Positions 4,185 through 55,162 of a stretch of DNA of 55,162 nucleotides are shown in pieces (the stretch's first letter is position 1; each line of letters begins with the position of its first letter). Source of the stretch: Pseudomonadota bacterium (GTDB lineage: Bacteria; Pseudomonadota; Gammaproteobacteria; Burkholderiales; Burkholderiaceae_C). The position numbers and the translations under genes are program-made. Location of the stretch: positions 1 through 55,162 of the forward strand of contig JAUNUR010000016.1 of the NCBI GenBank assembly GCA_030538085.1, in the 5' to 3' direction. The notes below the pieces were generated by a model. The model saw only the letters and a program-made list of their open reading frames with translations. It was not told the origin of the DNA and did not search any database.

Positions 4185-4410
4185 GTGCTTTTCCTCCAAA
4201 TCAATCCCTCGAAAAGGGCGTCGGGATGCAGTCTACTGGCGCAAAACGAAAGTGCTATTTGATTCGGGTCAGCATCGGAGCCGTGACGGCTTGCCGGCGC
4301 TTTTTTCCGTGAACAGCGGCTTGCCGCGAAGTGCGGTTCGTGGCGCTTGGCCTATCGGCTCCACGGCTGGGACTGTCCATTTCATGCGCTGCTCACTGGC
4401 CCTCGTCATG

Positions 4411-4515
4411 GCGGCTTTCGCCGCCAATAGCTTGTGCTATTGGCAAGGAATGCAACGCCGCAGGGCGCCCGAGGCCGGGGACAAGTGCGGCGCGAGGAGT
4501 TTGAGGACAGCCTCT
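4411..4515 (-). repeat. Family C hairpin repeat, partial copy
   Basis: One arm and the central palindrome (GCCAATAGCTTGTGCTATTG) of the family C element, ending in the terminus that reads TGAGAGGCTG on the minus strand. The other arm is missing. The rest of the gap 4185-4661 holds short palindromic scraps around GTCATTCCGTCAT and no supported gene. Confidence 0.8.
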
Positions 4516-4661
4516 CATGCCGTTTCGCGTTCAAAACGGTAGCTTTTGATGCTGCGGAATGCCTCGCACTCGGCGTCAGTCATGCCGTCATCGAAGCGCA
4601 GCGAGGTCATTCCGTCATCGCATCGGGCGCGAGCAGCTATCTTTTTGAACGCGAACCAGTA

Positions 4662-8208: not shown

Positions 8209-8664
8209 ATGTCTGATCGTGCGCCAATGCTGTTTTCGCTCCAGGGCACGCGCCGCCGTGTCATCTACGTCGCGCTGTACGAGCTGATCGCCATCGTCGT
8301 GGTCACGCTGGCGATGCTTTTGTTCACCGACCATGGTTTGAGCAACTCGGGCGGCATGGCGGTGGGCAGCTCGGCCATCGCGGTGGGGTGGAACCTGGTG
8401 TTCAACTATTTCTTCGAGCGCTGGGAGTTGCGCCAGCCCGTGCGTGGCCGCAGCACGGCGCGGCGCGTGGCGCATGCCATTGGCTTCGAGGGCGGGCTGC
8501 TGCTGTGGCTGGTGCCCTTCATCGCCTGGTGGCTGGGCGTGAGCCTGTGGCAGGCGCTGGTGCTGGACATCGGGTTGCTGGTGTTCTTCCTGGTCTACAC
8601 CTTCGTGTTTACCTGGGTCTTTGATCGCGCTTTTGGTCTGCCGGCGGGAATTGCTCCCCCCTGA
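8209..8664 (+). CDS. PACE-family (chlorhexidine-type) efflux transporter
   Basis: A 151-residue membrane protein with two tandem bacterial transmembrane-pair domains, the hallmark of the proteobacterial antimicrobial compound efflux (PACE) family. Four hydrophobic helices are visible, with the family motifs RRVIYVALYE near the start, WNLVFNYFFERWE at the end of the first pair, RRVAHAIGFEGGL opening the second pair, and FVFTWVFDR at the end. It should be a proton-coupled exporter in the inner membrane; the substrate cannot be read from sequence. The start at 8209 (MSDRAP) gives the family's usual length. The stop codon TGA coincides with the TGAGAGGCTG terminus of a family C repeat. Confidence 0.88.
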   Translation: MSDRAPMLFSLQGTRRRVIYVALYELIAIVVVTLAMLLFTDHGLSNSGGMAVGSSAIAVGWNLVFNYFFERWELRQPVRGRSTARRVAHAIGFEGGLLLWLVPFIAWWLGVSLWQALVLDIGLLVFFLVYTFVFTWVFDRAFGLPAGIAPP

Positions 8665-8817
8665 GAGGCTGTCCTCAAACTCCTCGCGCCGTGCTTGTCT
8701 CCGGTCTCGGGTGCCCTGCGGCGTTGCATCCCTTGCCAATAGCACAACCTGCGAGGACGAGCAACGCAGCATGGCGCGGCCAGCGCGGTGCGATCGGGTG
8801 CATCCAACTGCCGTTTC
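8662..8817 (+). repeat. Composite repeat: family C fragment joined to rearranged family A fragment
   Basis: Bases 8662-8748 are one arm of the family C hairpin, starting TGAGAGGCTG at the stop codon of the upstream gene. At about 8749 the sequence switches to family A interior in inverted sense, and then at about 8800 to the direct-sense right end of family A (CAACTGCCGTTTCTA). A family B copy follows immediately. Confidence 0.75.
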
Positions 8818-9024
8818 TATTGAGAGTTTCGTAATTCAGGACAAGCCTATGTCATGCCTTCACCTCATCCCGTCATTGCGGCGAAGGCCGCAATCCACAC
8901 GGTGTCCGTGGGTCAATGCCGTGTCAAGGTGACACTCCATGGATTGCGGCCTTCGCCGCAATGACGAGGGGATGTGAGGGGGGGCTGATGTCCCGCGCTG
9001 TCGTGATTTTTGAAAATATCAATA
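8818..9024 (+). repeat. Family B repeat inserted in family A terminus
   Basis: Complete family B copy bounded by TA at 8818-8819 and 9023-9024. The left boundary lies in the CTA of the family A terminus CCGTTTCTAGG. Bases 9025-9147 form the leader of the next gene and contain a short C-rich/G-rich palindrome (CCCCCAAAGGGGG) of the kind common in this family of genomes. Confidence 0.85.
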
Positions 9025-10357: not shown

Positions 10358-10407
10358 TATGACAAATGACGAATGGCCTCTTTGTCATTTTGAAAGCGAA
10401 TGCGCAT
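10358..10407 (+). repeat. Hairpin repeat D overlapping the uvrA-like start
   Basis: The sequence ATGACAAA...TTTGTCAT followed by TTTTGAAAGC and ATGCGCAT recurs inverted at about 34434-34493, after ahcY. The copy here supplies the spacer between the two genes and even the first codons of the uvrA-like frame (the ATGCGCATG lies inside the repeat). Confidence 0.7.
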
Positions 10408-13400
10408 GAACCCCAAACCTTCCGCTACCGGCCTGATCCGCATCCGCGGCGCGCGCCAGCACAACCTAAAAAACCTGGATCTCGACATCCGCACCGGCGA
10501 AATGACGGTGGTGACGGGGCCCAGCGGCTCGGGCAAGTCGAGCCTGGTGTTCGACACGCTGTACGCCGAGGGGCAGCGCCGCTACGTCGAAACCTTCAGC
10601 GCCTATGCGCGCCAGTTTCTCGACCGCATGGACAAACCAGCGGTGGACCGGGTGGAGGGCGTGCCGCCGGCGATTGCCATCGACCAGACCAACCCGGTGC
10701 GCAGTTCGCGCTCCACCGTCGGCACGATGACGGAGCTGAACGACCACCTGAAGCTGCTGTTCGCGCGTGCGGGCCAGTTGTTCGACCGCGAGACGGCGCA
10801 GCCGGTGCGGCATGACAACGCGGATTCGATCTATGCGGAGATGGTGCGGCGGGCGGCTGAAGCCGGCGATCCGCGCCTCGTCGTCACTTTCGCCGTGGAG
10901 TTGCCAGTTGGCACGTTGGCCGACGAAGTGCAGCAATGGCTGTCCGCCAGCGGCTTCACACGCGTGCAGGCGGAGCGCGAGGCAACGAGCGCCGCGCCGG
11001 GCCGCCCCAAGCAAGCGAGCGCCCCCTCGGGGGGCAGCGCAGACACGTCAGTGCGGAGCGTGGGGGTCGTCAAAGTGCTGGACGTGGTGGCCGACCGCTT
11101 TCGCATCGCCGGCGCCGCGCGGGCGCGGGTGATCGAGGCGATCGAGGTCGCGCTCAAGCGCGGCGGCGGGCGCATGGTGGTCTATGCGTTGCCGGCCGAT
11201 GAGGGCGCGGAACCTGAGCTGTGGAAGTTCTCCACCGGCCTGCACTGCCCCGAGAGCAATATCCGCTACGCCGACCCGATCCCGTCGATGTTCTCGTTCA
11301 ACTCGGCCGTGGGCGCGTGCGACAGCTGCCGCGGCTTCGGTCGCGTGATCGGTGTCGACTGGGGGCTGGTGATCCCGGACGAGCGCCTCACGCTGCGCGC
11401 CGGCGCCGTCAAACCGATCCAGACACCGGCCTGGCGCGAGGCGCAGGACGACCTGATGCGCCATGCCGAGGCCGCCGGCATCCCGCGCGACACGCCGTGG
11501 AACAAGCTCACGCCCGAGCAGAAGCACTGGGTGATCGAGGGCACGCCCAACTTCAAGGAGGGCAACTGGAATAAGCAGTGGTACGGCATCCGCCGCTTCT
11601 TCCAATACCTGGAGAGCAAGGCGTACAAGATGCACATCCGCGTGCTGCTGTCCAAGTACCGCAGCTACACCACCTGCCCCGACTGCGGCGGTGCGCGGCT
11701 GAAGCTGGAGAGCCTGTTGTGGCGCGTGGGCAGCAAGGCCGATGCCGATGCGGTGCTGCCGCCGTCGCAACGCTTCATGCCGGTAGGTGTGGGCTGGTCG
11801 CGCGCGCAACTCGAAAGCCTGCCGGGCCTGAGCCTGCACGACCTGATGCTGATGCCCATCGATCGGCTGCGGCGCTTCTTCGATCTGCTGGATGCATCCA
11901 CACCCTCCCCCGCTGGGGGAGGGCAGGGGTGGGGGCAGACCGCGTCCGCCATGAATGCTGTCGGCCCCTCACCCCAGCCCTCTCCCCAGAGGGGCGAGGG
12001 AGAAATAGCTGACACCGCTGGCGCCGCTGTAGCGGTGCGGCCCCCGCTCCCTCTCCCGCTTGCGGGAGAGGGCTGGGGTGAGGGTGCGCGCAGTGCCGAT
12101 GCCCAGGCCCTCAAGCTGATCCTGGACGAGATCGGCACGCGCCTGAAATACCTGTGCGAGGTCGGCATCGGCTACCTCACGCTCGACCGCCAGAGCCGCA
12201 CGCTGAGCGGCGGCGAGGTGCAGCGCATCAACCTGACCACGGCGCTGGGCACCTCGCTGGTCAACACACTGTTCGTGCTGGACGAGCCCAGCATCGGCCT
12301 CCACCCGCGCGACATGGACCGCATCACCGAGGCCATGCAGCGCCTCAAGAACGCCGGCAACACGCTGGTGGTGGTCGAGCACGACCCGGCCGTGATGCTG
12401 GCCGCCGACCGCGTGCTCGACTTCGGCCCCGGCCCCGGCGCGCAGGGTGGGCGCATCGTGTTCGACGGCACGCCCGACGAGCTGCGCGCCGCCGACACGC
12501 TGACCGGCGCCTACCTCGGCGGGCGCAAATCCATCGGCTTGGGCTTTGGGCGACCAGTGGCGGCGGGCACGCCGCGCCTGATTCTGGAAGGCGCGACCGA
12601 GCACAACCTGAAGAACGTCAGCGTCGAGTTTCCGCTGCAGCGCCTCGTCACCGTGACGGGCGTCAGCGGCTCGGGCAAGTCCACGCTGATCCAGGACGTG
12701 CTGGCGCCCGCGCTGCTGCGCCACTTCGGCAAGGCCACCGAATCGCCCGGCGCGCACGACCGTCTGCTGGGCGCCGAGCAGTTGGCCGATGTAGTGTTCG
12801 TCGACCAGTCACCCATCGGCAAGACGGCGCGCTCCAACCCCGTCAGCTACGTCGGCGCGTGGGATGCGATCCGCAAGCTGTTCGCCGATGCGCCGCTGGC
12901 CAAACAACGCAGCTACACGGCGGCCAAGTTCAGCTTCAACAGTGGCGACGGGCGCTGCCCGACCTGCGGCGGCTCGGGCTTCGAGCATGTGGAGATGCAG
13001 TTCCTGAGCGATGTGTACCTGCGCTGCCCGGATTGCGACGGCAAGCGGTATCGGCCCGAGATTCTGGAGGTCAAGATTGAGCGCCCGGTAAGAAAACTGG
13101 GGTCGGATTCCGATTTCCAGGGCGCAGCGGATCGTTTGTCTGCCGCCGCCGATGGGAAATCGGACTCTGACCCCAATTTTCTGGCCCACCGCACGCGGGC
13201 GCTCAACGTCGCCGACGTGCTCGACCTCACCGTGGCCGAAGCCGCGCAACTGTTCGTCGCCGACCGTGAGGTGATCCGCGCGCTGCAACCCATCGTCGAC
13301 GTGGGTCTGGACTACGTGAAGCTCGGTCAGCCCGTGCCGACGCTGTCCGGCGGCGAGGCACAGCGCCTGAAGCTGGCCGACTTCCTGGCCGAAGCGGCGA

Positions 13401-16400
13401 AACATGCCCCCACGCTCGCCGCGTCGCATGCTTCGCTGCCCCCCGAGGGGGCTGGCTGGACTTGGGGCGGCCCGGCGTCCAGCCGCGCCACCGCCAGCCG
13501 CCAGCCGACGGCGAAGAAGGGCACGCTGTTCCTGTTCGACGAGCCGACCACCGGCCTGCACTTCGACGACATCGCCAAGCTGATGCGCGCGCTGCGCAAG
13601 CTGCTCGACGCAGGGCATTCGCTGGTGGTGATCGAGCACAACCTGGACGTGATGCGGGCCAGCGACTGGCTGATCGACCTCGGCCCCGAAGGCGGCGACG
13701 CGGGCGGCCAGGTGGTGGCGCAGGGCGCGCCGGATGAACTGGCGCAGCACCCCACGTCGCACACGGGCGCGGCTTTACGCGACTACGCTGCGCGGTTGGA
13801 CGTTCAGCGTTCGGCGTTCAGCGTGGAAGAACCCCGTGCCATGTACCACGCCCAACGCCCAACGCCCAACGCTGAACCTGTGATCGAGATCGTGCACGCC
13901 CGCGAGCACAACCTGAAAAACCTTAGCGTTGACATTCCGCGTGGCAAGTTCAATGTCATCACCGGTGTTAGCGGCTCGGGCAAATCCACGCTGGCCTTCG
14001 ACATCCTGTTCAACGAGGGGCAGCGGCGCTACCTCGAATCGCTCAACGCCTACGCCCGCAGCATCGTGCAGCCGGCGGGCCGGCCCGAGGTGGATGCGGT
14101 GTACGGCATTCCGCCCACCGTCGCCATCGAGCAGCGCCTGTCGCGCGGCGGGCGCAAGAGCACCGTGGGCACGACGACCGAGGTTTGGCACTTTCTGCGC
14201 CTGCTCTACGTCAAGCTGGGCGTGCAGCACTGCGTGCACGACGGCGCCGCAGTGCAGCCGCAGACGCCCGAGCGCATCGTGGCGCAGGTCATGGCGCGCT
14301 TTCGTGGCCAGACTATCGGACTGCTGGCACCGCTGGTGGTGGCACGCAAGGGCGTCTATACCGAGCTGGCCGACTGGGCGCGCCCGCGCGGCTTCACGCA
14401 CCTGCGGGTCGATGGCGAGTTTTTGCCGACCACGAACTTCCCCCGCATCGACCGCTTCAAGGAGCACACCATCGAGCTGCCGGTGATGAGCCTGCAGGTG
14501 ACGCCCGGCAACGAGGCGCAGTTGCGCGAATCGGTCGCGCGCGCGTTGGAGCACGGCAAGGGCGTGGTGCACGTGCTGCACGACATCGCTGGCCTGCGCA
14601 ACGCGATGGAAACCGGCCAGCCCACGGCACGCATCGGCCAGGTGGATGTGTTCTCGACCAAGCGCGCCTGCCCGGTGTGCGCCACCAGCTATGCCGAGCT
14701 GGACCCGCGCCTGTTCAGCTACAACAGCAAGCACGGCTGGTGCCCCGACTGCGTGGGCACGGGCGTGAAGTTGACGCGCGAGCAGCGCAAGGCGCTGGAC
14801 GATTCGGTGCTGGCCGACGACCAGAAGGGGCGCGAGCAGACCTTTGCCGAGCCGGAGGTGGAGGACGTGGGCGACGCCGTGTGCCCCACCTGCCAGGGCA
14901 CGCGACTGAATCCGGTGGCGCGGGCGGTGCTGCTGGAAGCGCCCCGGCCCCTCACCCCAACCCTCTCCCCAGAGGGGCGAGGGAGCAAGGCCGGTGACGC
15001 TTCGCCGAACTTACTCCCTCTCCCGCTCGCGGGAGAGGGCGGGGGTGAGGGTGGGATTTCGATTGCCCAACTCGCCCACCTCAGCGTGCGCGACCTGCGC
15101 GCCTGGTTCGATGACTTGCGGCTCGAAGGCCGCGAGGCCGACATCGCGCGCGACCTGCTGCCGGAGATCAAGGGCCGGCTCGACTTTCTGGAGCAGGTCG
15201 GCCTGGGCTACCTCACGCTCGACCGTGGCGCGCCCACGCTGAGCGGTGGCGAGGCGCAGCGCATCCGCCTGGCGGCGCAGCTTGGCAGCAACCTGCAAGG
15301 CGTGTGCTACGTGCTCGACGAGCCGACCATCGGCCTGCACGCGCGCGACAACCAGATCCTGCTGAACGCACTGCACACACTCAGCGACAAGGGCAACACG
15401 CTGGTGGTGGTGGAGCACGACGAGGACACCATCCGCCGCGCCGAGCACCTGATCGACATCGGCCCAGGCGCGGGCGTGCGCGGCGGCCGGCTGGTGGCCG
15501 AGGGCACGGCGGCCGACCTCGAAGCCGCCGCCGATTCGGCCACCGGGCGCTACCTGCGCGACGCCATGCGGCATCCGATGCAAGCTCGCCGCGTGGTCTT
15601 GCCCCTTCTCCCGCAGGCGGGAGAGGGTGGGGGTGAGGGCCAGCGCGCCAAGTCAAGGAAGGCGGTCAGCACGACGACGCACCCCCTCACCCCCACCCTC
15701 TCCCCAGAGGGGCGAGGGAGCAAGCCCGGCGACGCGCCGGTGATCTGGCTGCATTTGCTGGGCGCCCATCTGCACAACCTGCGCGACGTTGACGTGGCCG
15801 TGCCGCTGCGGCGCCTGGTCGCGGTGACGGGTGTCAGCGGCTCGGGCAAGTCCACCCTGGCGCGCGACGTGCTGCTGACCAACGTGGCGGCCTGGGTCGG
15901 CCAGCGCGCCACCAAGGCCGGGCGCGAGGCGATGGACGCCGGCAAGGCCCCGCCGCTCGTTGGGTGTACCGGCCTGCGCGGCTTCGAGGGCATCGACCGC
16001 GTGCTCGAAGTCGACCAGACGCCCATCGGCAAGACGCCTCGCTCCTGCCCCGCCACCTACATCGGCTTCTGGGACACGGTGCGTCGGCTGTTCGCCGACA
16101 CGCTGGAAGCCAAGGCGCGTGGCTATGGCCCGGGGCGCTTCAGCTTCAACACCAGCGACGGCCGCTGCCCCAGCTGCGAAGGCCAGGGCGTGCGCACCAT
16201 CGCCATGAGCTTTCTGCCTGACGTGAAAGTGCCCTGCGAGGTCTGCCACGGCGCACGCTTCAACCCCGAGACGCTGGCCGTCACCTGGCGCGGCAAGAAC
16301 ATCGGCGACGTGCTGCGGATGGAAGTGGATGAGGCGGTGGAGTTCTTCGCCAGCATGCCCGCCATCGCGCATCCGCTGCAACTGCTGAAGGATGTGGGCC

Positions 16401-16801
16401 TGGGCTATCTGACGCTGGGCCAACCATCGCCTACGTTGTCGGGCGGCGAGGCGCAGCGCATCAAGCTGGTGACGGAGCTGTCGAAGGTGCGCGACGACGT
16501 CGGCAAGCGCGGCCAACGCACGCCGCACACGCTTTACGTGCTCGACGAACCCACGGTCGGTCTGCACATGCAGGACGTGGAAAAGCTCATCCGCGTGCTG
16601 CACCGCCTGGTCGATAGCGGCCAGAGCGTGATCGTGATCGAGCACGACCTCGACCTGGTCGCCGAGGCCGACTGGATCATCGACCTGGGGCCGGAAGGTG
16701 GCGACGGCGGCGGCCAGCTGGTGGCCGCCGGCACGCCCGAGGACGTGGTGCGCGCCGGCACGCACACGGGGCAGGCGCTGGCGCCGGTGCTGGGGCGTTG
16801 A
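10400..16801 (+). CDS. Double-length UvrA-like protein (two fused UvrA units, four ABC modules)
   Basis: A 2133-residue protein, about twice the roughly 950 residues of UvrA. UvrA is the damage-recognition ATPase of nucleotide excision repair. Four Walker A motifs (GPSGSGKS near 40; GVSGSGKS near 752, 1187 and 1810) and four LSGGE signatures (near 601, 982, 1614 and 2013) show two complete UvrA repeats in tandem. UvrA-type zinc CxxC pairs are present in both halves (for example [18 protein letters not shown]). The halves are joined near residue 1135 by a repetitive linker. At least six translated palindromic repeats interrupt the protein between domains. Tandem UvrA paralogues are known in this group; whether it replaces or accompanies a normal uvrA cannot be told here. 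The start may be ATG 10400 or 10406. Confidence 0.88.
11901..12088 (+). repeat. Pair of G+C-rich palindromes translated inside the uvrA-like gene
   Basis: Two palindromic repeat units of the CCCTCACCCC...GGGGTGAGGG class sit in frame and are translated as Pro/Gly/Glu-rich stretches ([39 protein letters not shown]). They lie in the insertion region just before the first LSGGE signature. Confidence 0.8.
13093..13180 (+). repeat. 24-bp inverted repeat translated inside the uvrA-like gene
   Basis: Arms 13093-13116 and 13157-13180 are near-perfect complements (AAAACTGGGGTCGGATTCCG against its complement, with one or two mismatches). They are read through as KLGSDSDF ... KSDSDPNFL. The sequence type differs from the other in-frame palindromes. 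Confidence 0.8.
13796..13885 (+). repeat. Repetitive linker at the UvrA-UvrA fusion point
   Basis: Short inverted and direct repeats of the TTCAGCGT and CGCCCAACGC kind span the junction between the two UvrA halves and are translated as [10 protein letters not shown] ... QRPTPNAEP. The first half ends and the second half ([15 protein letters not shown]) begins on either side of it. Confidence 0.7.
14947..15053 (+). repeat. Palindromic repeat pair translated inside the uvrA-like gene
   Basis: Two palindromic units, read in frame as [14 protein letters not shown] and [13 protein letters not shown], in the second UvrA half before its first LSGGE signature. This is the equivalent place to the pair at 11901-12088 in the first half. 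Confidence 0.8.
15601..15722 (+). repeat. Palindromic repeat pair translated between ABC modules 3 and 4
   Basis: Two palindromic units in frame ([14 protein letters not shown] and [14 protein letters not shown]) form most of the linker between the third and fourth ABC modules of the uvrA-like protein. Confidence 0.8.
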
Positions 16802-16804
16802 ACC

Positions 16805-17014
16805 TATTGAAAGTTTCGTAATTCAGGACAAGCATACGTAATGCCTTTACCTCATCCCGTCATTGCGGCGAAGGCCGCAATCCACACGGTGTCCGCGGGT
16901 GAATGCCGTATCAAGGTGACGCCCCATGGATTGCGGCCTTCGCCGCAATGACGAGGGGATGTGAGGGGATTTTTCTGATGGCCCGCGCTGTCTTGATTTT
17001 TGAAAATCTCAATA
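16805..17014 (+). repeat. Family B repeat in a remnant family A end
   Basis: Complete family B copy. Removing it and one TA joins AACC to TAGAAACGGC, restoring the left terminus of family A, so it sits in a CTAG target. The left boundary is four bases after the uvrA-like stop codon. Bases 17015-17176 are an AT-richer gap with a Comamonadaceae-type scrap (AGCTGCTCGCGCTTG) and no gene I can support. Confidence 0.85.
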
Positions 17015-48063: not shown

Positions 48064-48228
48064 GAGGCTGTCACCAAAACTCCTCGCGCCGCGCTTGTCC
48101 CCGGTCTCGGGCGCCCTGCGGCGTTGTATCCGTTGCCAACAGCACAAGCTATTGGCGGCGAAATGCGCCTTGCAGCACACCCGATCCGGGGCAATCGCTT
48201 TACCGCGATGAATTTGCGGACGGCCTCT
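48064..48228. repeat. Family C hairpin repeat, complete but diverged copy
   Basis: Both arms of the family C hairpin are present with several mismatches (GAGGCTGTCACC against GGACGGCCTC) and the central palindrome around ACAGCACAAGCTATTGGC. The right end abuts the stop codon of the protease gene at 48228-48230. Confidence 0.8.
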
Positions 48229-49288: not shown

Positions 49289-50425
49289 TCAGCGGATTTT
49301 CACCAATCCGTCGAGCACCTGGTCCAGACCTCCGACGACGGAGATCTTGTCGATGCGTTCGGCCACGCGCTCCAGCGTCTCCAGCTCCTTCATGCGCAGG
49401 GCTAAGGGCGAGCCCTCCATCACCTTGGCGGTGTTGAGCAGCGAGCGCGTGGCCGCCGTTTCCTCGCGGCGGCGGATCACGTTGGCCTGCGCGGCCTTCT
49501 CGGCCTCGACCACCTGCGCCAGCAGCGCCTTCATGTCGCCGGGCAGCACGATGTCCTTCACGCCCACGCCGTCCAGCAGCAGGCCGTAGGTGGCCAGCTT
49601 TTGGCGCACGTGCGCGGTCACGACTTCGTCGATGACGGCCTTGTTCTCCAGCAGTTCGTCGAGCGAGCGCGTGCCCACGGCGGCGCGCAGGCCCAGTTGC
49701 AGTTCGCGGTACAGGTGTTCCGCGGGTTTTTGCAGCTGGGTGAAGGCGGCCAGCACGTTGGCGTAACGCCAGGTGGCGGCCAGGTTCAGGCGCAGCGCGA
49801 CCTTGTCGCGGGTCAGGATTTCCTGGCCCGTGACTTCGAGCGACTGCAGGCGCAGGTCCACCAGCTCCACGGCCACGGTGCGGCCGAACTTCCAGAACGC
49901 ATGGTTGCCGGGCGGCAGCACGCGCTCGACGCGGCCGTCGATCGACAGCACGCCGGCGCCGTGCTCGGGCACCTGCACGCTCAGCACGCCGGCCAGACCT
50001 TGCACCGCGCGCGGGCGCAGCTGGGTCTGCGTCAGGCGCTGCACCAGTTCAGGCGGCAGCTCGGCGGTGGTGGCCACGTCGACCACGTCCACGCGCACCT
50101 CGCGCAGCCCCTTCCAGTACAGGCGGCGCGTGGCGGGCGGCAGCAGTTCGACCAGCACGCCGTCCTCGAACAGCAGGCCAGCCTGCGTTTCGCTCAGCTC
50201 CACGCGCACGAACTCGCGTGCGACCACCTCGGGCTCCTTGGCCAGCAGGTAGTCGGTCAGCTCGTGGGTGAAGGCGGGTTGTTCCAACGCAAAGGTGTCG
50301 ACGCGCAGGTCGTCGAAGGCGCTGAACAGGGTGTGGCGGCCGGGCGGCAGCACGCGATCGAAATCGCCATTGCGCAGCAGCAGGCCGCGTTCGTTTTTCT
50401 TGACGGTGACACGCTTGAGTTTCAT
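49289..50425 (-). CDS. Slipin/SPFH-domain (band 7) protein with triplicated N-terminal motif
   Basis: A 378-residue SPFH protein with no membrane anchor visible. A motif of the type G-L-L-x(3)G-x(4)V-L-P-P-G-x-H occurs three times (residues 14-34, 83-104, 158-178), then a band-7 domain with TGQEILTRDKVALRLNLAATWRY and the coiled coil VVEAEKAAQANVIRRREETAATR. Slipins of this build occur beside RtcB-type RNA repair genes and tRNA clusters in other bacteria. An AAGGAG site decides ATG 50425 over upstream ATGs. It is followed by the ClpP-fold protease gene, and upstream lies the tRNA array on the same strand. Confidence 0.8.
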   Translation of the reverse strand: MKLKRVTVKKNERGLLLRNGDFDRVLPPGRHTLFSAFDDLRVDTFALEQPAFTHELTDYLLAKEPEVVAREFVRVELSETQAGLLFEDGVLVELLPPATRRLYWKGLREVRVDVVDVATTAELPPELVQRLTQTQLRPRAVQGLAGVLSVQVPEHGAGVLSIDGRVERVLPPGNHAFWKFGRTVAVELVDLRLQSLEVTGQEILTRDKVALRLNLAATWRYANVLAAFTQLQKPAEHLYRELQLGLRAAVGTRSLDELLENKAVIDEVVTAHVRQKLATYGLLLDGVGVKDIVLPGDMKALLAQVVEAEKAAQANVIRRREETAATRSLLNTAKVMEGSPLALRMKELETLERVAERIDKISVVGGLDQVLDGLVKIR

Positions 50426-50533
50426 CTTGTTCTCCTTGGTGTGTTGCGTGGTTTCAAGCCAAATCGCCGTTTTGCGTAATAAGAGCAAGCGCGAGTAGCT
50501 ATTGATTTGATAGTGTCTGGGTGCCGTTACAGG

Positions 50534-50683
50534 GGTGGCGGCGGTCCGTGGTCGTGACCGGCGGGATCACGCGGCGGGCGCGGGTGTGCGGCTGCCCTTT
50601 GCAGGCAAGCCGAACGCCCGCGCTGGCCGTGTGTGCCGCGGGTTCGTCTCCCCGGCGCGAAGCCGCCACCGCTGACGGACCGC
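50534..50683 (-). ncRNA. Possible structured leader RNA of the slipin operon
   Basis: Two mutually exclusive 9-bp pairings are possible across this 150-base stretch: GCGGTCCGT with ACGGACCGC (50541-50549, 50675-50683), and GGTGGCGGC with GCCGCCACC (50534-50542, 50662-50670). It lies between the last tRNA and the slipin-like gene on the same strand. No homology to a named RNA can be claimed, and the gap 50426-50789 holds no gene. Confidence 0.35.
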
Positions 50684-50789
50684 TGGCGCGGGGCATGAGC
50701 GGGCTGGTCGCTGGCCGAAGCCATCGACAGCCGTTGCATGCCCCCGCACTGCGCGCCCGCGTTCGGCGGGTGGTCTTGCGACCGTTTCA

Positions 50790-50864
50790 TGGTGTATGGA
50801 GCGGGAGTCGAACCCGCGACCGACGAATTCCAGATTCGCTGCTCTACCGGTGAGCTATCCACAC
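50790..50864 (-). tRNA. tRNA with atypical anticodon loop
   Basis: A full cloverleaf with encoded CCA: acceptor GTGTGGA/TCCATAC, D stem GCTC/GAGC, T arm GCGGG-TTCGACT-CCCGC. The anticodon stem GCGAA/TTCGT closes the loop TCTGGAA, giving UGG (Pro) by position but with C instead of the near-universal U33. Identity is therefore uncertain. It is the last tRNA of the leftward array and touches the next tRNA-like unit with no spacer. Confidence 0.75.
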
Positions 50865-50961
50865 TGGCGGATCTCTTGGGAGTCGAACCCAAATCAAGAA
50901 GATGCCCCACGGCGAGTTCCATCGGCTGCTTTCAGCGGTGCGGCATGCGCGGCAGCGATCC
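50865..50961 (-). tRNA. Divergent tRNA-Ser-like unit
   Basis: A 97-base unit with acceptor GGATCGC/GAGATCC (one mismatch), G73, encoded CCA and a perfect T arm TTGGG-TTCGACT-CCCAA. The GGA in ATGGAAC could be a Ser anticodon, with a long variable region behind it, but the D and anticodon stems pair poorly. It is either a degenerate tRNA-Ser(GGA) or a tRNA mimic. Confidence 0.5.
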
Positions 50962-50977
50962 GTTCACCACGGAGCGC

Positions 50978-51045
50978 CACGCACCGGTGGGGCGGGCTTG
51001 CACCCGAACCCCTGACCTGTGAGCGTTCCGCCTTGGGCAGCAGAT
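50978..51045 (-). other. T-arm-like tRNA remnant
   Basis: CACAGGTCAGGGGTTCGGGT and the GCCCGCCCCACC that follows resemble the 3' half of a tRNA (an AGGTC variable region and a GGTTCG T-loop start), but the T arm carries a 2-base bulge and no 5' half or acceptor can be matched. Confidence 0.3.
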
Positions 51046-51071
51046 TCATTGACGCGGCTGAATCGTTGGGA

Positions 51072-51647
51072 TCAGTTCAGGCGCGAATTCCTTGGCAGGC
51101 GCGCGGCCAGCCAGTCGTGCACGTCGGCGCGGATGCGCCGCCCTTCGAGCAAAAAGCTCTCGAAGCGGCTGGGCACATACGGCAGGTACAGCAGCGGCAT
51201 GCCCGCCTCATCCGGCGTGCGCGCGGCCTTGCGGCCGTTGCACGCCGCGCAGGCGGTGACCAGGTTCATCCAGCTCCAGGCACCGCCGCGCGAGGCGGGC
51301 ACGATGTGCTCGCACTGCAGGTCCCACTCGGCGTGCACCTGCCCGCAATAGGCGCAGGTGTGGCGGTCGCGGCGCAGTAGCTTGGGCTTGGTCACGCCGG
51401 GCGTGATGTCGAACAGGTTCACCCGCGCCGCGCCATGCAGCGCGATGATGGGCGGCACCTCGATGATCGACTGCCGGCCAAGCGCCACGTTGAAGCCGCC
51501 GCGCAGCACCGCCAGCGGCGCGCGGCCCTCGGTCCAGGCCACGGCGTCGCTGGCCACGTGCGTTGCGGCCTGCTCCAGCGTGATCCACGCCTGCGGCGTG
51601 CCCTGGATGTCGAGTTGCAGCACTTGGCTGTAGGAACGGTGATGCAT
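51072..51647 (-). CDS. HNH endonuclease inside the tRNA array
   Basis: A 191-residue protein with a complete HNH module near residues 105-155: RRDRHTCAYCG, then CEHIVPASRGG (H of the first HNH step), then NLVTACAACNGRKAARTP (N-H and the second CxxC zinc pair). The N-terminal half is unassigned. HNH nucleases of this build are common singletons in proteobacteria, but here the gene sits between tRNA genes on the same strand, so it may be co-transcribed with them. ATG 51647 follows a GGAGG ribosome site; the longer frame reads into tRNA-Gln. Confidence 0.85.
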   Translation of the reverse strand: MHHRSYSQVLQLDIQGTPQAWITLEQAATHVASDAVAWTEGRAPLAVLRGGFNVALGRQSIIEVPPIIALHGAARVNLFDITPGVTKPKLLRRDRHTCAYCGQVHAEWDLQCEHIVPASRGGAWSWMNLVTACAACNGRKAARTPDEAGMPLLYLPYVPSRFESFLLEGRRIRADVHDWLAARLPRNSRLN

Positions 51648-51683
51648 GGGGCCTCCTTTCTGTGGCCGTTGAAAGAACAAAAA

Positions 51684-51758
51684 TGGCAGGGGCGGCAGGA
51701 TTCGAACCTGCGTGCGCCGGGTCAAAGCCGGCTGTCTGAACCGCTCGACGACGCCCCA
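51684..51758 (-). tRNA. tRNA-Gln (UUG)
   Basis: Anticodon loop CTTTGAC in the stem GCCGG/CCGGC, T arm GCAGG-TTCGAAT-CCTGC, encoded CCA, and U1 as is usual for Gln tRNAs (here facing U72, a mismatch). Confidence 0.88.
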
Positions 51759-51771
51759 TCAAAAAAAGCAC

Positions 51772-52010
51772 TGGTGCGCGCTCGAGGATTCGAACCTCGG
51801 ACCCTCCGGTCGGGAGGCTGCCCTCGGATTCCTCGCGTCGCGCTGGCCCAGGGCTCGAGTGCCCTGCGGCGTTGCAAACCTTGCCGATAGCACAAGCTAT
51901 CGGCGGCAGCTTGCGCCTTGCAGACCACCCGATCCGAGACCATCGCTTCCCGCGATCAATCTGAGGGCAGCCTCCAAGCCGGATACTCTGACCTGCTGAG
52001 CTAAGCGCGC
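51772..52010 (-). tRNA. tRNA interrupted in the anticodon loop by a family C element
   Basis: All arms are intact: acceptor GCGCGCT/AGCGCGC, D stem GCTC/GAGT, anticodon stem TCCGG/CCGGA, T arm CGAGG-TTCGAAT-CCTCG, encoded CCA. Between CTT and CGA of the anticodon loop lies a 163-bp hairpin element (51813-51975). Because one base can belong to either side, the original anticodon is ambiguous: UGC (Ala), UCC (Gly) or another. Without excision the anticodon cannot be read. Confidence 0.85.
51813..51975. repeat. Family C element inside a tRNA anticodon loop
   Basis: A 163-bp long hairpin with perfect 13-bp ends (GGAGGCTGCCCTC), one mismatch, more pairing, and central palindrome CCGATAGCACAAGCTATCGG. 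It is in the opposite orientation to the copy in tRNA-Leu. Confidence 0.85.
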
Positions 52011-52020
52011 AATCGATGTG

Positions 52021-52095
52021 TGGTTGTCCGAGGTGGATTCGAACCACCGCACGCCGCCTTATGAGGGCGGTGCTCTACCGCTGAGCTATCGGACA
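52021..52095 (-). tRNA. tRNA-Met/Ile2 (CAU)
   Basis: Acceptor TGTCCGA/TCGGACA, anticodon loop CTCATAA in the stem CCGCC/GGCGG, T arm GGTGG-TTCGAAT-CCACC, encoded CCA. CAU could be elongator Met or lysidine-modified Ile; it lacks the C1-A72 mismatch of an initiator. Confidence 0.88.
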
Positions 52096-52103
52096 GTAAG
52101 GGT

Positions 52104-52181
52104 TGGGGTGTCCAGCCGGCTTCGAACCGGCGACCCTCGGATTCACATTCCGATGCGCTGACCTGCTGCGCCATGGACACC
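52104..52181 (-). tRNA. tRNA-His (GUG)
   Basis: Anticodon loop ATGTGAA in the stem TCGGA/TCCGA, and an extra G at -1 facing C73, the His identity mark. Encoded CCA. Confidence 0.92.
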
Positions 52182-52190
52182 GTGGAAAGA

Positions 52191-52266
52191 TGGCTGCCCG
52201 AGGAGGCTTCGAACCTCCGCGCTCCTGGTTAACAGCCAGGCGCTCTACCGACTGAGCTATCGGGCA
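52191..52266 (-). tRNA. tRNA-Asn (GUU)
   Basis: Anticodon loop CTGTTAA in the stem CCTGG/CCAGG, acceptor TGCCCGA/TCGGGCA, encoded CCA. Confidence 0.93.
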
Positions 52267-52273
52267 AGAAAAA

Positions 52274-52450
52274 TCACCACTCGCCGTGCAGGCGCACGCG
52301 CTCGTCCGGGCGAAGCGGATCGTGCCGTGCGCGCAGCAGCGCAGCGGGCAGCCACGCACGCGCGGTCAGGCGCAACACGCGTTGTGCGGCATCGCGCAGG
52401 CTGCGGGCGCCGGGTTGCGCCGCCGGCACGGCTTGAGCTTGCTTGCGCAT
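52274..52450 (-). CDS. 58-codon ORF within the tRNA array
   Basis: MRKQAQAVPAAQPGARSLRD and so on: an Arg/Ala-rich, strongly basic frame preceded by AAGGAG at a good distance from ATG 52450. No family is recognised. It lies between tRNA-Cys and tRNA-Asn on the array strand. It could be a small RNA-binding protein or a chance frame. Confidence 0.5.
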   Translation of the reverse strand: MRKQAQAVPAAQPGARSLRDAAQRVLRLTARAWLPAALLRARHDPLRPDERVRLHGEW

Positions 52451-52483
52451 GCTGCTTCTCCTTGAAAAGAAAGCTGAATGAAA

Positions 52484-52563
52484 TGGAGGTGCGGGCCAGA
52501 TTCGAACTCGCGGTGATAGACGGATTTGCAATCCGTTGCCTTCGACCACTTGGCTACCGCACC
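52484..52563 (-). tRNA. tRNA-Cys (GCA)
   Basis: Anticodon loop TTGCAAA in the stem ACGGA/TCCGT, U73 as is typical for Cys, acceptor GGTGCGG/CCGCACC, encoded CCA. The T stem has one mismatch and the variable region is slightly long. Confidence 0.88.
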
Positions 52564-52572
52564 GATGAAAAA

Positions 52573-52661
52573 TGGTGGGTCGTCAGGGAGTCGAACCCCG
52601 TGGTGTCCCGAAGGAGGCCGGATTTACAGTCCGGTGCAGTCGCCAGTGCTGCGCACGACCC
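52573..52661 (-). tRNA. tRNA-Tyr (GUA)
   Basis: Anticodon loop CTGTAAA in the stem CCGGA/TCCGG, long variable arm around CCTTCGGG, acceptor GGGTCGT/ACGACCC, encoded CCA. Confidence 0.92.
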
Positions 52662-52668
52662 GAGAAAT

Positions 52669-52745
52669 TGGCGCCCCGCGCAGGACTCGAACCTGCAACC
52701 CCCGGCTTCGTAGGCCGGTGCGCTGATCCATTGCGCCAGCGGGGC
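52669..52745 (-). tRNA. tRNA-Arg (ACG)
   Basis: Anticodon loop CTACGAA in the stem CCGGC/GCCGG, acceptor GCCCCGC/GCGGGGC, encoded CCA. Confidence 0.93.
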
Positions 52746-52753
52746 ATGAAAAC

Positions 52754-52829
52754 TGGTGCCGACGGAAGGACTCGAACCTCCCACGCCCTCGTCTTCAGCG
52801 AGGCGCTCTACCGGATGAGCTACGTCGGC
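52754..52829 (-). tRNA. tRNA-Phe (GAA)
   Basis: Anticodon loop CTGAAGA in the stem CCTCG/CGAGG, acceptor GCCGACG/CGTCGGC, encoded CCA. Confidence 0.92.
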
Positions 52830-52838
52830 AAGATCTCA

Positions 52839-52914
52839 TGGCGCTCCGTGCGGGATTCGAACCCGCGGCTTCCGGCTAGACAGGCCGGCACTCTGGCCAC
52901 TGAGTTAACGGAAC
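52839..52914 (-). tRNA. tRNA-Asp (GUC)
   Basis: Anticodon loop CTGTCTA in the stem CCGGC/GCCGG, G73, acceptor GTTCCGT/ACGGAGC (one G-U pair), encoded CCA. U37 is unusual. Confidence 0.88.
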
Positions 52915-52920
52915 AACACT

Positions 52921-53155
52921 TGGCGTCGCGTAGGGGATTCGAACCCCTGTCGGCGAGTTGAAAACACGCTGTCCTAAGCCCAGGTGTCGTGTCGCGCCCG
53001 AAACGACCGTGTTCGCTTGGTCTCGAAACGCATCGCGGCGTTGCACTCGTTGCCAAGGCATCCAGCCTTGGCGGCCGACCGCGCCTTGCGCTGCGCTCAG
53101 AACCCGGCGCGACCATCGGCCATTTCGAGCGCGACACGACACCGACGAACGCGAC
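52921..53155 (-). tRNA. tRNA-Glu (UUC) interrupted in the D loop by a family C element
   Basis: Acceptor GTCGCGT/ACGCGAC, anticodon loop TTTTCAA in the stem GCGTG/CTCGC (one mismatch), T arm AGGGG-TTCGAAT-CCCCT, G73 and encoded CCA. The D arm is split: GTCG before and TGGGCTTAGGAC after a 161-bp element. Removing the element restores a Glu-type D arm. Confidence 0.85.
52983..53143. repeat. Family C element in the D loop of tRNA-Glu
   Basis: A 161-bp hairpin with perfect 15-bp ends (GGTGTCGTGTCGCGC). Its ends differ in sequence from the other copies, yet the interior keeps the family core (GGCGTTGCA, GCCAAGG...CCTTGGC, CAAGGCGCGGT). Confidence 0.85.
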
Positions 53156-53165
53156 GCTTGAAAAA

Positions 53166-53241
53166 TGGTCACGGTTGAAGGTCTCGAACCCTCGGCCTCA
53201 TGCTCCCAAAGCACGCGCTCTGCCAACTGAGCTAAACCGTG
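53166..53241 (-). tRNA. tRNA-Pro (UGG)
   Basis: Anticodon loop TTTGGGA in the stem CGTGC/GCATG, C1-G72 as is usual for Pro, acceptor CACGGTT/AACCGTG, encoded CCA. Confidence 0.9.
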
Positions 53242-53250
53242 AAGAAAATC

Positions 53251-53339
53251 TGGCGGAGCGTGCTGGATTCGAACCAGCGGGCCGCTTGCGCGACCACGGC
53301 TTAGCAAGCCGCTGCTTTGGGCCACTCGGCCAACGCTCC
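53251..53339 (-). tRNA. tRNA-Ser (GCU)
   Basis: Anticodon loop TTGCTAA in the stem GCGGC/GCCGT, long variable arm GTCGCGCAAGCGGC, G73, acceptor GGAGCGT/ACGCTCC, encoded CCA. Confidence 0.93.
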
Positions 53340-53349
53340 TGGATGTAGT

Positions 53350-53591
53350 TGGTGCCCCAGGAGGGATTCGAACCCTCAGAGGCTGTCCTCAAACTCATCG
53401 CGGTAAGCGATTGCCCCGGATCGGGTGTCCTGCAAGGCGCATTTCGCAGCCAATAGCTTGTGCTATTGGCAAGGAATGCAACGCCGCAGGGCGCCCGAGA
53501 CCGGGGACAAGCGCGGCGCGAGGAGTTTGAGGACAGCCTCTCAGGCCCCTGTTTCTGAGACAGGGACGTATACCTGTTCCGTCACCGGGGC
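53350..53591 (-). tRNA. tRNA-Leu (CAG) interrupted in the variable arm by a family C element
   Basis: Acceptor GCCCCGG/CTGGGGC, Leu-type D arm GACGGAACAGGTATACGT, anticodon loop CTCAGAA in the stem CCTGT/ACAGG, T arm GAGGG-TTCGAAT-CCCTC, A73, encoded CCA. The class II variable arm is occupied by a 164-bp hairpin (53378-53541). It is the first tRNA of the leftward array. Confidence 0.86.
53378..53541. repeat. Family C element in the variable arm of tRNA-Leu
   Basis: A 164-bp element with perfect 19-bp ends (AGAGGCTGTCCTCAAACTC) that continues as one imperfect hairpin to the central palindrome GCCAATAGCTTGTGCTATTG. It would form a giant variable arm in the RNA. Confidence 0.88.
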
Positions 53592-53601
53592 GATGAAAAA
53601 A

Positions 53602-53745
53602 CCACTTCGGCTGTGCCCGTGCGCGAACAGCCACAAGGGGCTTGGTGTTTCGCTGCACGTGGCGCCGGCCGGACACCGCGCACATCGCCGCCGCCACCCT
53701 CACCAGCGGTTGCGGCAACGGCGTGCACGGGCACACCCGAAGTGG
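53602..53745 (-). repeat. Long inverted repeat upstream of the tRNA array
   Basis: Arms 53602-53622 (starting CCACTTCGGCTGTGCCCGTG) and 53725-53745 are complementary over 21 bases with one mismatch, enclosing 102 bases. It lies just upstream (leftward sense) of tRNA-Leu. A hairpin of this size might be an array leader or another short element. The stretch 53592-53920 holds no supported gene. Confidence 0.7.
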
Positions 53746-53799
53746 GGCGAGGGCGCGCGTGGGTGCATGGGTGCACCCGGCGGCGCTCGCCTTTTCGAT

Positions 53800-53839
53800 G
53801 CAAGGCTGTGTGTTTCCCGCCAGTACGGGACAGCCTTGC
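53800..53839. promoter_or_regulatory. Hairpin upstream of the tRNA array
   Basis: GCAAGGCTGT and ACAGCCTTGC are perfect 10-base arms with an inner CCCG/CGGG pair. The role is unknown; it could belong to the leader of the array transcript. Confidence 0.5.
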
Positions 53840-53922
53840 GGCGGTTTGTTAATGAACCCGTGGCCATGCGAAGGGCACGACCCGCGCGGTGCGATCACCG
53901 CCCGTGAAAGAGCTTGAAAAAC

Positions 53923-53957
53923 AAAAACGGCCCGGAACCTTGTCGATTCCGGGCCGT
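53923..53957 (-). terminator. Intrinsic terminator of the 54001-54213 gene
   Basis: ACGGCCCGGAA and TTCCGGGCCGT form an 11-bp perfect stem. On the minus strand it is followed by TTTTT, so it terminates leftward transcription just before the tRNA array. Confidence 0.85.
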
Positions 53958-54000
53958 CGCGGGGCACCTGCGTCAGGTGCCTGGCGTGGAGGGCGCGTGT

Positions 54001-55001: not shown

Positions 55002-55011
55002 GAACAGGTTC

Positions 55012-55162
55012 TAATGACGCTTTCAAAAATCACGACAGCGCGGGCCATCAGAAAAATCCCCTCACATTCCCTCGTCATTGCGGCGAAGGCCGCAATCCAT
55101 GGGGCGCCACCTTGACACGGTGTTGACCCGCGGACACCGTGTGGATTGCGGCCTTCGCCGCA
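55012..55162 (-). repeat. Family B repeat, inverted copy cut by window edge
   Basis: Reverse-complement family B copy starting at TA 55012-55013. It has the same hairpin arms (CATTGCGGCGAAGGCCGCAA) and runs out of the window. Confidence 0.85.

Follow-up and report, generated by a model that had tools for sequence, protein, structure and literature searches.

Rickettsia palindromic elements are palindromes that have inserted within genes and are tolerated there, and the intervening sequences of some bacterial 23S rRNAs are hairpin inserts at loop positions which are removed by RNase III, the nicked RNA being held together by pairing. Here we describe a tRNA gene array of an Ottowia-like bacterium in which three genes are each split by a palindromic insert of about 160 bp. 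The array lies on a contig of 55,162 nucleotides (C47; JAUNUR010000016.1), hereafter called the window, which belongs to a 3.5-Mb draft genome of 134 contigs (G000; GCA_030538085.1). With a probability of roughly 0.83, the inserts are non-autonomous palindromic transposable elements resembling miniature inverted-repeat transposable elements (MITEs) that transposed into members of a redundant tRNA gene array. Most likely they represent selfish DNA tolerated in spare tRNAs rather than a new sort of intron. What they share with Rickettsia palindromic elements, in general character rather than by aligned sequence, is that palindromes are tolerated in genes, here the tRNA genes of a redundant array. 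As in the 23S rRNAs, a hairpin occupies a loop of a stable RNA, whereas here the insert of the tRNA-Lys gene destroys the anticodon.

Split tRNA genes of other kinds have been reported. In the bacteria Thiomargarita and Beggiatoa, tRNAs, those for Arg and Leu among them, are reported to be split by putative group I introns (PMC4853749); the genes described here are likewise interrupted, but by palindromes with a target duplication and without an intron match. For a disrupted archaeal tRNA gene interruption by a mobile element was proposed; that case involves introns of archaea and an element of 1.8 kb with a predicted recombinase gene (PMC3293823). The array as such resembles the tRNA array units of Mycobacterium avium, which reportedly combine one HNH gene with redundant tRNAs of odd structure and for which a possible role in antidefence has been discussed (PMC12803027). 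Dense redundant tRNAs, a single HNH gene and odd tRNA structures are common to both; the array studied here is distinguished by its 14 genes, its chromosomal position in two relatives (G015 and G230) and the hairpins that split three genes. Judged by dense redundancy and the HNH gene it would thus belong to a known kind of locus. With IS5-related MITEs the inserts have in common that they are short and multicopy and carry terminal inverted repeats and short target duplications, and the arm type of one insert in G015 is like IS5-family ends. By contrast, one covarying core of about 61 nt here joins many ends across the family, and searches gave no partner transposon for either arm type present in the window. 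No report of such tRNA interruptions or of a superfamily of such hairpins was found in a literature search whose coverage excluded most subscription journals. The mechanism is most likely ordinary transposition; what is new is a superfamily that combines a common core with interchangeable ends, together with split tRNAs that look almost intact.

In gene order the array reads Leu, Ser, Pro, Glu, Asp, Phe, Arg, Tyr, Cys, Asn, His, Met, Lys and Gln, with Leu, Glu and Lys interrupted. ARAGORN recognised 11 of the 14 genes as intact (its twelfth call, a tRNA-Pro at 50790, lies outside the array). The Rfam tRNA model found ten array genes above its cut-off, and Tyr was detected weakly via another tRNA model. 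The positions of the array, the split genes and the inserts are as follows.

51684..53591, minus strand: 14-gene tRNA array, 1.9 kb
53350..53591, minus strand: tRNA-Leu(CAG), split where variable loop and T stem meet; joined flanks minus one TGA read as Leu(cag), 77 nt
53379..53540, plus strand (strand of the core model): Leu insert, a family 1 palindrome of 162 bp (GAGGCTGTCC...GGACAGCCTC)
52921..53155, minus strand: tRNA-Glu(TTC), split in the D loop; joined flanks read as Glu(ttc), 76 nt
52984..53142, minus strand: Glu insert, a palindrome of 159 bp with arms GTGTCG...CGACAC
51772..52010, minus strand: tRNA-Lys (assigned by synteny), split in the anticodon loop; anticodon not recoverable
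51814..51974, minus strand: Lys insert, a diverged family 1 palindrome of 161 bp

The Leu insert carries the clearest marks of transposition. It differs at a single position from the consensus of 30 copies in its own genome (itself among them) and is flanked on the tRNA strand by a duplicated TGA (53376-53378 and 53541-53543). Without the insert and one TGA the gene is exactly as long as the uninterrupted tRNA-Leu genes of three relatives (G015, G230 and G407), which thus represent the empty site. At least 39 further matches of high identity (88-100%) were present in the genome when 40 of 168 candidates were scored, and the terminal repeat of the Leu-type element had 133 matches with up to one mismatch, compared with one for a control. 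An exact TNA target duplication, often within CTNAG, was present at 20 of 30 copies of family 1 that were examined, among them the Leu insert. Mobility, which the preliminary description had favoured, is accordingly supported by the target duplications, by the three relatives in which the Leu site is empty and by the dozens of copies dispersed in the genome. It had also noted that the elements sit in both orientations, and indeed the core of the Leu insert lies on the plus strand, those of the Lys and Glu inserts on the minus strand. With terminal inverted repeats, a target duplication (Leu), high dispersed copy number and an empty site in relatives, we conclude that the inserts are MITE-like elements.

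The position of the Leu insert bears on the near-intact appearance of the gene. Its target CTGAG extends into the start of the T stem, whose first bases are provided anew by the duplicated copy. The T stem is thus rebuilt by the target duplication, so that an intact Leu stem follows from the chemistry of insertion and need not reflect an avoidance of stems. The insert had originally been placed in a variable arm, but the gene has no long variable arm: empty site and orthologues of the three relatives all measure 77 nt. Likewise, the view that interruptions never fall in stems does not hold, given the overlap of the Leu target with the T stem and an insert within the anticodon stem of a tRNA-Arg gene in G015. 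The D-loop and anticodon-loop positions of the other two inserts were as described.

All three inserts had been assigned to one family of nearly equal length. The lengths are indeed similar, but the Glu insert shares only the core with the others; the arms of the Leu and Lys inserts are about 82% identical, and these are the only two array inserts that share arms. The Lys insert departs from the family 1 consensus by 28 substitutions and one gap (18%), and neither a target duplication nor a close copy in its own genome was found. For the Glu insert, no target duplication and no other full-length copy in the genome were seen. The end sequences of the window types are GAGGCTGTCC and GTGTCGTGTC.

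Common to all three inserts is a core hairpin of about 61 nt that is conserved on both sides, with GCAAGGCG on the 5' and CAACGCCGC on the 3' side. This core is joined to many kinds of arms, and different genomes carry different ones. Six of 11 pairs of its predicted structure show two-sided changes; matched changes, read by eye, also occur in the apical stem, which is unpaired in the predicted structure. A covariance model (R1) was built from an alignment (A1) of 25 of 33 core sequences, L097, L098, L100, L120, L122, L125, L015 and L030 having been left out by hand. It yielded at least 74 matches at an E value of 0.01 or better in the own genome (150 candidates scored). In a census with 36 candidates scored per genome, so that all counts are lower bounds, it matched in at least 85 of 150 sampled genomes of the family and in 81 of 141 genera. 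This points to a superfamily of hairpin elements with a conserved core and interchangeable ends.

As to the moving agent, the arm type of an insert in the tRNA-Asn gene of G015 closely resembles both ends of elements annotated as IS5 family on plasmids of Polaromonas and Burkholderia savannae. On a Xanthomonas plasmid, a gene annotated as an IS5-family transposase matched a second arm type over 22 bases (E 0.6); this match stood amid unrelated ones and was not used. We infer that IS5-type transposases, by recognising the element ends, may also move elements with the arm types of the window. The Leu element would have entered CTGAG, whereupon TGA was duplicated and the start of the T stem supplied again, leaving a tRNA that looks intact around the insert. 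Such insertions could persist if an intact gene for the same amino acid is present elsewhere and if a hairpin that folds on itself within a loop has little effect on the transcript.

Several observations weigh against our interpretation. An exact duplication is missing at the Lys and Glu inserts and at 10 of the 30 copies of family 1. A search of the own genome with PF01609, the one transposase family tried, returned two weak matches without ends of the window type, and a transposon with GAGGCTG or GTGTCG ends was found neither in this genome nor in plasmid searches. The matches of the IS5-like arm are short (E 0.1 and 2), and one of the three regions that carry them, in Acidovorax, lists no transposase in a gene table known to be incomplete. 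Three cores within 1.8 kb exceed expectation (P 0.007; Poisson test with 0.38 expected, insertions being confined to an assumed 10% of non-coding DNA). Finally, all three split tRNAs keep complementary acceptor, anticodon and T stems, save for one mismatch in Glu that is shared with relatives; that stems are kept even around the Lys insert, 18% off its consensus, hints at constraint after insertion.

Related arrays were sought in 29 genomes of the genus, some of which are incomplete drafts. Several array tRNAs occurred together in four (G000, G015, G230 and G407); the other 15 genomes with a match had single tRNA-sized stretches. In G015, a single contig, the array lies on the chromosome, and its Arg and Asn genes, both whole in the window, are interrupted by elements with the same core. 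The Arg-ACG insert, 79% identical to the Glu insert, sits inside the 5' strand of the anticodon stem, which is disturbed, although three excisions still read as Arg(acg). The Asn insert lies in the anticodon loop (read by eye), and the acceptor stem does not form in the predicted fold. Uninterrupted counterparts of split genes are the Lys genes of G015 and G230 and the Glu gene of G015. The array of G230 is also chromosomal and lacks several genes, and no interrupted array tRNA was found in G230 or G407. The preliminary description had considered that relatives might carry the same tRNAs as decayed pseudogenes. Four tRNA-like stretches of G407 (Pro, Glu, Trp and Gln), which ARAGORN did not recognise, are decayed, but they are without inserts. 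An excision of about 125 bases at the 5' end of the G407 Trp gene, proposed by the excision scan described below, was taken as a chance match beside this decayed gene.

The single-contig genome G015 also bears on a trivial explanation, namely that the draft assembly joined repeats to tRNA fragments. G000 does consist of 134 contigs, and several element copies lie within 400 bases of a contig start. However, the two halves of each split tRNA match, a proper target duplication flanks the Leu insert, and G015 shows the same kind of event at other tRNAs, which makes an artefact highly improbable.

Whether the split tRNAs still work depends first on what is left of them. In all three genes the acceptor and T-stem letters are complementary, CCA is encoded and the element ends pair, as had been stated at the outset. 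Predicted folds at full length pair the acceptor stems with probabilities of 0.8-1.0. The Lys transcript folds as a full cloverleaf with the hairpin in the anticodon loop (T-stem probability about 0.6). These results agree with the earlier proposal of a tRNA with one giant extra hairpin and otherwise intact arms. The other two genes do not conform to it throughout: Leu has a disturbed D arm and a T-stem pairing probability of only 0.25, and Glu keeps its acceptor, D and T arms but has a non-canonical anticodon arm. The Glu anticodon stem contains a T-T mismatch also present in G015 and G407, and hence not due to decay after insertion. The anticodons of Leu and Glu are not interrupted by the insert, and the GG of the Glu D loop is retained, by sequence, on the 3' side of the insert.

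The Lys anticodon, on the other hand, cannot be recovered. The gene is assigned to Lys because of its place before Gln and its near-identity to the Lys genes of G015 and G230, where the gene before Gln is Lys-TTT or Lys-CTT and differs little outside the anticodon loop. Of the loop itself CTTG and CCGA are left, compared with CTCTTAA and CTTTTAA in the relatives. Excisions of the insert gave Gly, Ala, Arg, Gln, Pro, Ser or undefined anticodons and never Lys, which argues against introns. In keeping with this, Rfam returned no intron match up to an E value of 1 in 50500-54000, and the core of a group I intron was not recognised there; the preliminary description was thus right that the inserts are not group I-like, whereas its suggestion of removal by RNA processing finds no support in either result. 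In the same interval only tRNAs reached an Rfam gathering score, so that no catalogued RNA element was identified. Matches below threshold (MIR8622 at 53374-53545, E 0.00015; plastid leader families; YrlA) were set aside as look-alikes of hairpins or tRNAs.

Pairing within the hairpins is maintained in one case. Compared with its relative in G015, the Glu insert has eight two-sided compensatory pairs and only four broken ones where 17-18 would be expected. For the Lys insert, 8-11 pairs are broken (about 13 expected) and three are compensatory, its age being inseparable from subfamily divergence. Together with the paired acceptor stems, the Lys cloverleaf and the retained GG in Glu, the Glu hairpin could be read as a sign that the tRNAs function, either with a giant extra arm or after RNase III has removed the hairpin and left a nicked tRNA held by pairing. 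We regard this as unlikely. Core copies that lie outside tRNAs show compensatory change as well, so that such change speaks for the element, not for the tRNA. Moreover, the tRNAs are redundant: outside the window contig the genome has 40 tRNAs, including Lys-TTT, Glu-TTC and Leu-CAG, so that the amino acids of all three split genes are served elsewhere. The disturbed Arg anticodon stem (its Arg(acg) excisions notwithstanding) and the unformed Asn acceptor stem of G015 point the same way. Taking into account this redundancy, the weak Leu T stem, the non-canonical Glu anticodon arm and the loss of the Lys anticodon, we favour tolerated selfish insertions. The Lys gene is very likely a pseudogene; less firmly, the Glu and Leu genes are probably non-functional or marginal.

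One could go a step further and imagine that the Leu and Glu genes yield stable chimeric tRNA-hairpin RNAs which were kept or co-opted, be it as RNase III-nicked tRNAs or, if the array guards against defence systems that cut tRNAs, as decoys, and that the core hairpin is a recognised RNA or single-stranded DNA structure which lets one element borrow the ends of many transposons. We consider this combined scenario improbable.

The local clustering of inserts raises the question of whether the elements specifically target tRNA genes or tRNA loops, the latter having been suggested before. Such a preference would fit the five insertions seen in the two Ottowia arrays, of which four lie within a loop or next to one, as well as the CTNAG- or CTAG-like words present in tRNA loops. 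In addition to the excess in the window mentioned above, the array of G015 gave P 0.002 in the same test (assumed 10% non-coding; at least 16 cores; array length taken as 1740 bases). The test was run with non-coding fractions of 7, 10, 15 and 100%; if insertions fall anywhere, 0.04 cores are expected in the 1.8 kb. Yet the chance of four in five falling in loops is about 0.13, given 34 loop positions in 76, which is no strong signal, and none of the five insertions hit CTCAG, a word common in D arms. An excision scan of 60 core loci from 19 genomes, hand-chosen (20 in the own genome and the other 40, mostly with high scores, in 18 further genomes), found none in a tRNA, five loci (L232, L237, L238, L239 and L242) being cut within the element by a contig end. 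A further scan covered 30 tRNA-bearing loci, a few with only two or three tRNAs, from the own genome, G015, G230 and 27 loci of other genera; matches composed of parts of intact neighbouring tRNAs were set aside. No hairpin-split tRNA was detected in the 27 loci, nor did the core model match below E 0.01 there or in a tRNA array on a Variovorax plasmid. The scan recovers only four of the five known split tRNAs, missing G015 Asn, so its negatives are not absolute. Overall, a general targeting of tRNA genes or loops is improbable, although the Ottowia arrays do show a local excess. Relaxed selection on spare tRNA genes could account for it, and some target preference may have contributed.

MITE-like transposition into spare genes thus remains our preferred reading, and it has implications beyond this array. 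Mobile hairpins enter tRNA genes and leave the stems formally intact, in one case because the target duplication rebuilds the stem. Within a redundant array, tRNAs that are split or bear introns could plausibly begin to arise in this way.

Family 1 is also present in the window outside the array, as listed here.

48064..48228, minus strand: family 1 element
4407..4521, plus strand: truncated family 1 element
8660..8750, strand not assigned: truncated family 1 element, a single arm up to the apical loop

Elsewhere, centre-deleted family 1 elements of about 82, 108 and 125 bp which keep their terminal repeats (L175, L176, L177 and L178) and many solitary half elements were seen, as expected from deletion at hairpins. 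A search with the Leu element in plasmid and phage collections gave no match.

One further gene adjoins the array.

51072..51725, minus strand: HNH endonuclease open reading frame (ORF), PF14279, E 2.9e-14

Together with a Band_7/SPFH ORF (both within 49289-51725) it follows the array in the window as well as in G015 and G230, which suggests a conserved tRNA-array island; an HNH gene is also found near the Variovorax plasmid array. An origin of the array from a phage or plasmid was considered and dismissed, as phage and plasmid collections gave only partial tRNA similarity. A pattern search for the Lys gene had no hit in viral contigs and one in a named genome, a metagenome-assembled genome of Ottowia.

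Directly upstream of Leu, the first gene of the array, lies an inverted repeat of about 144 bp (CCACTTCGGCTGTGCCC..., 53602-53745). The same structure is found just upstream of Leu in G015, G230 and G407, and it is perhaps a leader or an integration site. Between Cys and Asn, a 58-aa ORF on the minus strand (52274-52450) is preceded by a ribosome-binding-like AAGGAG; it is kept in G015 and G230 (LPAALLR...DERVR..GEW) and, by eye, also in G407, and a translated portion of it had no Pfam match.

Other repeats occur in the window. An ORF for a UvrA-like protein of 2133 aa (10400-16801) contains apparently duplicated ABC domains and internal repeats, and palindromic repeats (CCCCTCACCCC / CTCCCTCTCCC) lie within this reading frame at about 11965-12086, 14948-15053 and 15602-15765. 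Another dispersed palindromic family (GTCATTGCGGCGAAGGCCGCAATCCA) is located at 2146-2313, 8817-8984, 16804-16971 and 55009-55162, several of its copies being 91-95% identical to each other.

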